45,236 nt of DNA. Source: Methanomicrobiales archaeon. GTDB taxonomy: Archaea; Halobacteriota; Methanomicrobia; Methanomicrobiales; JACTUA01. The position numbers were made by a program, and so were the translations under genes. Location of the stretch: NCBI GenBank assembly GCA_030019205.1, contig JASEFH010000022.1, positions 1-45,236 of the forward strand, read 5' to 3'. How positions within the stretch are numbered: the first letter of the stretch is position 1; each line of letters starts with the position of its first letter. This document shows positions 42,445 to 45,229 of this stretch, one piece after another. The notes beneath the pieces were generated by a model. It made no database searches. It was not told where the DNA came from and worked only from the letters and a program-made list of their open reading frames with translations.

Positions 42445-42843
42445 TCAGACGTACTTGTCCATTATCAGAATCTCGGTACCGTCGATAAATGTCGCCACGA
42501 TATAGATCCGATCCGGCTTCTGTGTTGGAGGTACATTACTCTTTCTTGTAACGCCGATCTCCGGCGGCGCCCAGGTCCAGTTATCCGGTTGATTCTCCCC
42601 ATTGAGAATCCACACGTCCAGCCGCACCAGTTTGTCGTGGTCCTGCCCGCCCTGGTAGGTGACGACGATATTCCCGATTCCGTCGTCGTATGCCGATGCA
42701 GAGACCAGATAGGTGTTCTTCGTCTTCTCCGCCACTCCATATACATTGGCGGCCACCCAGGCGGCGAGCATGACAGTTATCGCGACTGCAAGGATAATGC
42801 CAACCGTTTCAGAAACTGCCTCCTCGCTGTCGATCTCCCGCAT
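42445..42843 (-). CDS. Type IV pilin-like protein (archaeal pilin N-terminal domain)
   Basis: A 132-residue protein with the prepilin-type N-terminus: MREIDSEEAVSETVGIILAV followed by a hydrophobic helix AITVMLAAWVAANVYG. The outside domain has NIVVTYQGGQDHDKLVRLDV and ends in ILIMDKYV. ATG 42843 is preferred because the TATA box at 42903-42912 would start the transcript at about 42880. That leaves the earlier starts at 42900 and 42933 untranscribed or too close. It is one of three paralogues in a row. Confidence 0.8.
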   Translation of the reverse strand: MREIDSEEAVSETVGIILAVAITVMLAAWVAANVYGVAEKTKNTYLVSASAYDDGIGNIVVTYQGGQDHDKLVRLDVWILNGENQPDNWTWAPPEIGVTRKSNVPPTQKPDRIYIVATFIDGTEILIMDKYV

Positions 42844-42901
42844 CGTTACCCCCGCATCCGGCACGACCGGATTGAATTGTTTCAGTATTGTTAGAGACAT
42901 T

Positions 42902-42912
42902 GTATAAATATT
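42902..42912 (-). promoter_or_regulatory. TATA box of the first pilin-like gene
   Basis: AAATATTTATA on the minus strand (42902-42912 region) lies in AT-rich sequence 60-70 bases before ATG 42843. It predicts a leader of about 37 bases containing GCGGGGGT shortly before the start. Confidence 0.5.
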
Positions 42913-43071
42913 TCTAAGTGATGTTATGGTCAATCAACTGTAAAACCAGAAACAATCGAATATTATAATAAAAATCGGATGAAGAGAGTGGAACGCACAT
43001 TCGATTCAAACTCATTTCAATCCCACGAGGTCTGGTTCTACCGGATAGCCGATCCTCCTTCTCGCCGCCCG

Positions 43072-43637: not shown

Positions 43638-44051
43638 TCATACATATGCATCCAGAATGACCTGATCCTCGTCGATATTGCTATTGAAATGAGCGATCAC
43701 GATTACGTGCTCTTTTCCATCTGTGCCCAGGCCTGGGAAGGTATCAATGCAACCCACTACTGGATTGTTCACGGTATGCGATGCCGTTCCCAGAGAACTG
43801 TACACCGTGATATCAAGAGATTGAACCTGTCCCCTATCCGGACCGCCGTGGAAGTAGATCAGGATGTCATCCTCGTTCTGGATGGCATTGGCTGCTACCA
43901 TTCTTTTTGCCTCGACTGTTGAGGTCATGCCGAGCACGACCGTGGCAATCACCGCGGTAAGAATCACCGTGATCCCGACCATCAGGATCACCCCGATAAC
44001 CGGCGATACGGCTTCATCTTCACGAGGCCTGCCCTTGACTTTCCCAATCAT
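43638..44051 (-). CDS. Type IV pilin-like protein (archaeal pilin N-terminal domain)
   Basis: A 137-residue protein. MIGKVKGRPREDEAVSPVIG is followed by VILMVGITVILTAVIATVVL, the usual pilin helix. The outside part has DILIYFHGGPDRGQVQSLDI and ends in QVILDAYV. It shares the G-G-x-D and C-terminal Y-V motifs with the other two pilin-like proteins. It follows the 45-residue micro-pilin at a gap of 54 bases and may be in its transcript. Confidence 0.9.
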   Translation of the reverse strand: MIGKVKGRPREDEAVSPVIGVILMVGITVILTAVIATVVLGMTSTVEAKRMVAANAIQNEDDILIYFHGGPDRGQVQSLDITVYSSLGTASHTVNNPVVGCIDTFPGLGTDGKEHVIVIAHFNSNIDEDQVILDAYV

Positions 44052-44105
44052 TTCTTAATCTTCCAGTATCTTTTTTATCTTTCCCCTATCGCCTTGCGAC
44101 GCACA

Positions 44106-44243
44106 TCAGCCCAGCCCGGGCACGAATCCGCTGACGAGAAAGGCCAGGATGACGATGACCGTGACCATCATCATCTGCCCGACCGTCTCGGATACGCCCT
44201 CTTCCCTGGGAAATAATCTATTGTGAGAGATACTCTCCAGCAT
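44106..44243 (-). CDS. 45-residue pilin-like microprotein (N-terminal domain only)
   Basis: The frame encodes MLESISHNRLFPREEGVSET followed by a hydrophobic helix VGQMMMVTVIVILAFLVSGF and ends VPGLG. It has the cleavage-site region and helix of the pilin-like neighbours (compare EEAVSETVGIILAVAIT) but no outside domain. An AGGTGA ribosome site lies eight bases before the ATG (44252-44257). A TATA box, TATTTATATATG, spans 44284-44295, so the start is properly supplied with signals. It is either a true mini-pilin or a truncated one kept under a live promoter. Confidence 0.7.
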   Translation of the reverse strand: MLESISHNRLFPREEGVSETVGQMMMVTVIVILAFLVSGFVPGLG

Positions 44244-44283
44244 TTCAGATCTCACCTTTAAGTATGAAAATTAGAAAAGTTCA

Positions 44284-44295
44284 CATATATAAATA
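44284..44295 (-). promoter_or_regulatory. TATA box of the micro-pilin gene
   Basis: TATTTATATATG on the minus strand, about 40-50 bases before ATG 44243. The predicted transcript start near 44263 leaves a 20-base leader that holds AGGTGA. Confidence 0.6.
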
Positions 44296-44551: not shown

Positions 44552-45229
44552 TTAGAGAGCAATAGAGCCGCTGTAGGACTTATCGTACTTATCTTTATAC
44601 CTGAATGATATCGATCCGCCCTTGTACTCTCCGCCGCAATCAACCGGGACCTCGACGTAGAAGCTCCTGGATTTACCCGGTTCGACTGTACCGACCGTGA
44701 CCGTCTTGGATCCCGTTGCGAATCCTGACTTGGTTGGGTTCATTGTGGCGGTCAGGGTTAGTTCCTGGGCCGAGATCTCGCCGGAATTCGTCAGTGTTCC
44801 CGAGAAGATCCACTTGCAGGGGTTTCCATATACATACTGGGTCTTTGTGAGCGTTCCCTTGACATCGGGCTTTGGAAGCGTCATCGTCTGTGAGAATGTT
44901 GCTATCTGACCTGCTTTCACATCCACAGTACCGTTGACAGTTGCATAATCGGGCATGGATAGCCGGACCTCATGCTTTCCCACGGGGACATCCGTGATGT
45001 TCAGGGGAGTGCTGCCGCGGTAGGTGCCGTCCAGGTAGACGGATGCCCCCCAGGGAGTGGAAGTCACTTTTATAGTTCCAACTGATGGGACCGGAGTTGC
45101 TGGTGTTTTTTGGGCAGAGGATTGACCCCCCGCAGTGCTGGAACCGCTCTGTGCTACCGTACATCCTGCGGAGATTAGAGCGGTGCAGAGGATTAATATT
45201 ACCAATAGTATCAAGATTTTTCGCGCCAT
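44552..45229 (-). CDS. PEGA-domain lipoprotein
   Basis: A 225-residue exported protein. The signal peptide MARKILILLVILILCTALIS ends in the lipobox ISAGC, with Cys23 as lipid-anchored residue. A Ser/Thr/Gln-rich linker follows (about 24-50). A PEGA domain comes next at about 51-115 (IKVTSTPWGASVYLDGTYRG, TPLNITDVPVGKHEVRLSMP). The C-terminal part is a beta-sandwich of unknown type (about 120-225). PEGA domains are surface-associated in many archaea. The gene is complete and ends seven bases before the window edge. Confidence 0.88.
   Translation of the reverse strand: MARKILILLVILILCTALISAGCTVAQSGSSTAGGQSSAQKTPATPVPSVGTIKVTSTPWGASVYLDGTYRGSTPLNITDVPVGKHEVRLSMPDYATVNGTVDVKAGQIATFSQTMTLPKPDVKGTLTKTQYVYGNPCKWIFSGTLTNSGEISAQELTLTATMNPTKSGFATGSKTVTVGTVEPGKSRSFYVEVPVDCGGEYKGGSISFRYKDKYDKSYSGSIAL

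Follow-up and report, generated by a model that had tools for sequence, protein, structure and literature searches.

The window, by which we mean the whole stretch of DNA that was analysed, is one complete contig (C22) of 45,236 bp and belongs to a genome of 2.73 Mb in 73 contigs that is 99.6% complete. The organism is a methanogen, as shown by the genes cfbA, cfbB, cfbD and cfbE (coenzyme F430) and methanogenesis marker 9, all of which lie within the window; its order is very probably Methanomicrobiales. On the minus strand, a very short open reading frame, which we call the micro-pilin (translation MLESISHNRLFPREEGVSETVGQMMMVTVIVILAFLVSGFVPGLG), is followed by three pilin genes in the order pilin 2, pilin 1 and pilin 3, each with a Pilin_N domain (Table 1). 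Its upstream neighbour on the same strand, 309 nt away at the contig end, encodes a PEGA-domain protein with a lipoprotein-like N-terminus (44552-45229, -). The mechanically assigned TTG start of pilin 3 at 42933 (42445-42933, -) is probably wrong, and the ATG at 42843, which is preceded by a strong Shine-Dalgarno sequence, opens a normal leader, MREIDSEEA.

Table 1. Features of the micro-pilin locus and the pilin genes that follow it.
Feature	Position	Strand	Remarks
TATA box TTTATATA	44286..44293	-	exact match; last base 43 nt from ATG
Shine-Dalgarno AAGGTGA	44252..44258	-	8 nt before ATG; anti-SD duplex -8.5 kcal/mol
Micro-pilin ORF, 45 aa, TGA included	44106..44243	-	Pfam Pilin_N above cut-off
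Predicted class III leader MLESISHNRLFPREEG	44196..44243	-	cleavage after G, E at -2; from sequence
Predicted mature membrane helix, 29 residues	44109..44195	-	corresponds to helix 17-43 of the pilin 2 model
Gap between micro-pilin and pilin 2, 54 nt	44052..44105	-	without pilin remainder or TATA-like site
Pilin 2, 137 aa, helix and seven-strand beta domain	43638..44051	-	Pfam Pilin_N 60.2 bits
Pilin 1, 133 aa	43072..43473	-	Pfam Pilin_N 61.1 bits
Pilin 3, 132 aa from SD-preceded ATG	42445..42843	-	Pfam Pilin_N 41.4 bits

The micro-pilin frame runs from ATG to TGA over 45 codons (44243-44106, -). An alternative GTG start at 44255 would extend the product to 49 aa, but lacks a Shine-Dalgarno sequence. 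The TATA box at 44293-44286 is one of two matches to TTTATATA in the 45-kb window, where 0.04 are expected. The predicted duplex between the ribosome site and the anti-Shine-Dalgarno sequence has an energy of -8.5 kcal/mol for the micro-pilin, compared with -3.3 for pilin 2 and -10.0 for pilin 3, while pilin 1 has none. The initial annotation had described a short frame with a TATA box, a ribosome site and a pilin cleavage region plus helix, followed by a stop, and all of these elements were recovered (the open frame, TTTATATA, AAGGTGA and a Pilin_N match). Codon use fits the sense frame, with a GC3 of 0.90 in the mature part; however, one antisense frame scores equally well, so that the support for the sense frame from this measure is weak.

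One operon comprising the micro-pilin and all three downstream pilins is not supported. Pilin 3 has its own TATA-like sequence, TTTATAC, at about 42908-42902 (7/8 consensus match). Possible TATA-like sequences of its own also precede pilin 1, namely a weaker 6/8 site and CCCTATATTG closer to the start (TATATT, about 43512-43507). No TATA-like site was found within 90 nt upstream of pilin 2 (best 4/8). The three downstream pilins thus probably do not all share the micro-pilin promoter, and, judged by consensus sequences, the most economical picture would be a two-gene unit of micro-pilin and pilin 2, with separate promoters for pilins 1 and 3.

The micro-pilin scores 28.6 bits in Pfam Pilin_N (PF07790), where the cut-off is 25.2 (E 2.6e-6); this is far above chance for a frame adjoining three pilin genes. 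The match covers residues 15-44 and only positions 1-30 of the 78 in the profile; the N-terminal model TIGR02537 gave no match to the micro-pilin. Archaeal prepilin peptidases recognize sites in which G, A or S at -1 follows a charged residue at -2 (PMC4371748), and REEG/VSETVG, with its EEG/V junction directly ahead of a hydrophobic helix, conforms to this rule. Cleavage there would divide the product into MLESISHNRLFPREEG and VSETVGQMMMVTVIVILAFLVSGFVPGLG, reducing 45 aa to a predicted mature length of 29.

For structural context, pilin 2 was modelled with AlphaFold2. The model has a mean pLDDT of 79, with lower values over the helix, and shows a helix at residues 17-43, followed by a loose hinge and then by seven strands. 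Aligned to pilin 2, the micro-pilin ends where the helix ends, at the modelled domain boundary, and carries no non-pilin tail. Since it has the N-terminal hallmarks of archaeal type IV pilins and stops before the surface beta domain that such pilins possess, we call it a pilin-derived helix and not a pilin proper. A fold search with pilin 2 returned mostly monobody and fibronectin-type beta sandwiches and is uninformative for the helix. The same genome encodes an A24 peptidase carrying the archaeal C-terminal domain (the archaeal prepilin peptidase). It also encodes a PilB3-like ATPase accompanied by two T2SSF proteins, and an archaellin that has a separate ATPase.

Several routes by which a longer gene could have become a short one were tested at the locus. 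A full-length pilin broken by a single mutation, the case that the initial annotation had set against its own reading, was not seen, as no remainder lies between the stop and pilin 2. No pilin remainder was matched in the 193 nt from the micro-pilin ATG or in the 58 nt that follow its coding part. A point-mutation break was rejected on this ground, whereas six short frames in relatives keep their remainders. Fusion or read-through was also rejected, because the frame after TGA reads CASQGDRGKIKKILED before the next stop and has no similarity to pilins. That the frame is a fragment copied from a paralogue of this genome was rejected as well, the best-scoring other match being 42% identical. The micro-pilin helix scores 25.3 bits against the profile of the VMLML pilin type and 20.6 against the VILMV type, to which pilins 1-3 belong, which argues against its being a recent copy of these neighbours.

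Relatives were searched for comparable short frames ahead of pilin genes, as had been proposed, and none homologous was found in the 232 genomes of the order or in 393 genomes sampled over the phylum, in each case among the roughly 150 best matches listed (to E about 4e-4). No other intact helix-only pilin was present among 441 distinct pilin frames, drawn from 2.3 Mb of sequence that surrounds the pilin loci in this order, nor among 497 frames obtained with a slightly lower threshold and further loci. Pilin_N searches of 11 genomes of the family, 18 well-assembled genomes of the order and 18 further genomes of the phylum, with match lists that are complete or nearly so, gave no other case. 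The family set consists of this genome and ten others, none of the same genus, and the others have different gene arrangements. A search of the genome contigs with pilin 2 retrieved only four distant haloarchaeal loci.

The short pilin frames that did emerge differ from the micro-pilin in what follows them. At L096 and L212 (both in G103), L256 (two in G042) and L267 (G134), the rest of a pilin follows immediately, either in frame or in a different frame. The two neighbouring broken pilins of L256 (G042:C1:945085-945261 and 945987-946133, -), one with a stop and one with a frameshift, lie in a closed genome and could reflect phase variation or decay. L261 (G305:C1:989106-989252, -) is a clean helix-only frame of 49 codons with a TATA-like sequence, in which an in-frame TAA stands right after the helix and the rest of the frame runs on. 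Its counterpart in the sister species G309 (L277) is an open frame of 254 aa, 88% identical over 49 residues; L261 was thus rejected as a micro-pilin and is regarded as a natural nonsense allele or a possible case of read-through. A pilin broken in mid-helix without a remainder occurs in G010 (C66), and G120 has a 66-aa pilin form without a visible remainder. Two further candidates, in G326 (C38) and G395 (C44), were rejected as both are cut by contig ends. The genome of the window itself contains a frameshifted pilin (L117, G000:C6:102330-102542, -) that keeps a Shine-Dalgarno sequence and a start codon in another frame. Of the short frames among about 500 distinct ones, that of the window alone stops at the hinge without leaving any remainder.

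The helix itself is unusual. It departs from other pilins at four near-invariant positions (V7Q, T14I, A19F and G26P), two of which, V7Q and A19F, occur in none of 412 pilin helices of the order, while T14I and G26P each occur in 0.2%. The nearest pilin helix shares 17 of its 29 residues, which places the micro-pilin at the 2% quantile of nearest-neighbour identities. Despite these departures, the helix is still hydrophobic and the cleavage motif is intact. When real pilin genes were mutated without selection to 17/29 identity in a simulation of 20,000 trials, 1.5% of the trials retained an open frame, absence of charge, hydrophobicity and the cleavage motif. This result speaks against an old, drifting relic, while being compatible with a pilin that was already unusual and was truncated recently. 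The four departures would be expected of a helix freed from the constraints of filament packing.

Taken together, these observations favor, at a little under even probability, a real small gene for a working helix-only type IV pilin. In its favor we counted the intact frame, the expression signals, the Pilin_N match, the end at the hinge without a remainder, the 1.5% outcome of the drift simulation, the near-unique helix residues, the presence in the genome of the peptidase, the PilB3-like ATPase, two T2SSF proteins and the archaellin, and the precedent of the Haloferax volcanii pilin H-domain, which affects motility from the membrane (PMC4371748). Counted against it were the lack of an orthologue in the genomes searched, the weak codon support for the sense frame with an equal antisense frame, and the fact that relics do occur, as illustrated by the frameshifted C6:102330 pilin of the same genome and the mid-helix cut in G010.

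A deletion relic is the second of two close readings and is rated as somewhat less probable, though still a serious contender. Here, a full-length first pilin would have lost its surface domain by deletion, or acquired a stop and then lost the rest, and the promoter, ribosome site and leader would survive because pilin 2, which has no TATA box of its own, still needs the promoter. Every other short pilin frame detected in the phylum has the look of a broken or truncated gene, including the clean helix-only frame of G305 that is full length in G309, and the genome carries a frameshifted pilin of its own; the lack of a micro-pilin orthologue, both in the 232 order genomes and in the matches listed for the 393 phylum genomes, points the same way. 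Less easily accommodated are the 54-nt gap that holds no remainder, a cut placed at the hinge with no foreign tail before the stop, a helix that stays hydrophobic at low identity, and departures at near-invariant sites unlike any intact pilin sampled.

Another explanation, which we consider unlikely, is that the frame acts as a leader whose translation matters for pilin 2, through membrane targeting of the mRNA, ribosome loading or coupling, while the peptide is discarded. The micro-pilin is the first frame after the TATA box and has a strong Shine-Dalgarno sequence, while pilin 2 is preceded by a weak one and lacks its own promoter; however, 54 nt is long for direct coupling, and such a role does not require a full cleavage motif. 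A split pilin, in which the micro-pilin would be one half and another protein would supply the surface domain, is very improbable and was rejected at the locus: in Geobacter the short PilA-N gene adjoins pilA-C (PMC6201914), but here there is no adjacent helix-less surface-domain gene, the next frame (pilin 2) having its own helix and the upstream neighbour being the PEGA protein.

If the micro-pilin is a working gene, it would be transcribed together with pilin 2, and its product would be inserted by the usual pilin route and cleaved after EEG by the peptidase. The mature peptide would then remain in the membrane as a free helix of 29 residues, most likely packed against the helices of pilins or archaellins, or against the assembly platform, before assembly. 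In doing so, it may tune the number of subunits that enter the filament rather than serve as a structural subunit; a regulator is suggested by the missing surface domain and by the bulky or polar residues at positions that are near-invariant in filament pilins. We put forward, as a tentative proposal, a dedicated helix-only pilin that acts within the membrane and either regulates the assembly of the pilus or archaellum or serves as a decoy in it. Capping or plugging of the filament, as suggested in the initial annotation, is possible.

This membrane mode would resemble the role of the PilA H-domain in Haloferax volcanii, where the pilin helix, and not the surface domain, controls swimming from within the membrane (PMC4371748). 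In both cases the helix could be the active part; in H. volcanii, however, it belongs to full-length pilins, and the passages compared mention no separate gene for the helix alone. With archaeal type IV pilins in general (PF07790, PilA family), the micro-pilin shares the leader, the cleavage motif and the N-terminal helix, and it adjoins three such pilins, but it differs in lacking a beta domain, in its mature length of 29 residues and in its four near-invariant helix departures.

The shortest archaeal pilins in the literature compared are those of Methanococcus maripaludis, EpdE/MMP1685 and MMP1283, with 67-76 aa, or 54-63 after cleavage (PMC3875500); judged by its predicted mature length, the micro-pilin would be about half their size. 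They too are small and have little beyond the helix, but they carry Gln at +1, Glu at +5 and, in MMP1685/MMP1283, N-glycosylation sites (PMC3875500), whereas the micro-pilin has Val at both positions and no Asn in its mature part. Geobacter PilA-N, with 61 aa in its mature form, is likewise short and mainly helical and is thought to descend from a longer pilin, but it is paired with a neighbouring surface-domain gene, pilA-C (PMC6201914), for which the micro-pilin has no equivalent. Among the papers listed by a short search of the open-access literature, there was no case of an archaeal helix-only or micro pilin. A natural helix-only gene, if real, would allow Haloferax-type control by the helix to be tested directly and would mean that a pilin gene can be reduced to a regulator; a relic, in turn, would illustrate how clean the loss of the surface domain can be in a pilin gene that keeps its promoter.

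Near pilin genes in G092 and G085, we also observed a zinc-ribbon membrane protein (L207:14512-14964, +, and L208 at about 3244, -). Its end, FILAAIVAAFVFGMSGSTYY, nearly equals the end of a pilin helix, ILAAVIAAFVFGMSGS, which may reflect shared origin or coincidence.
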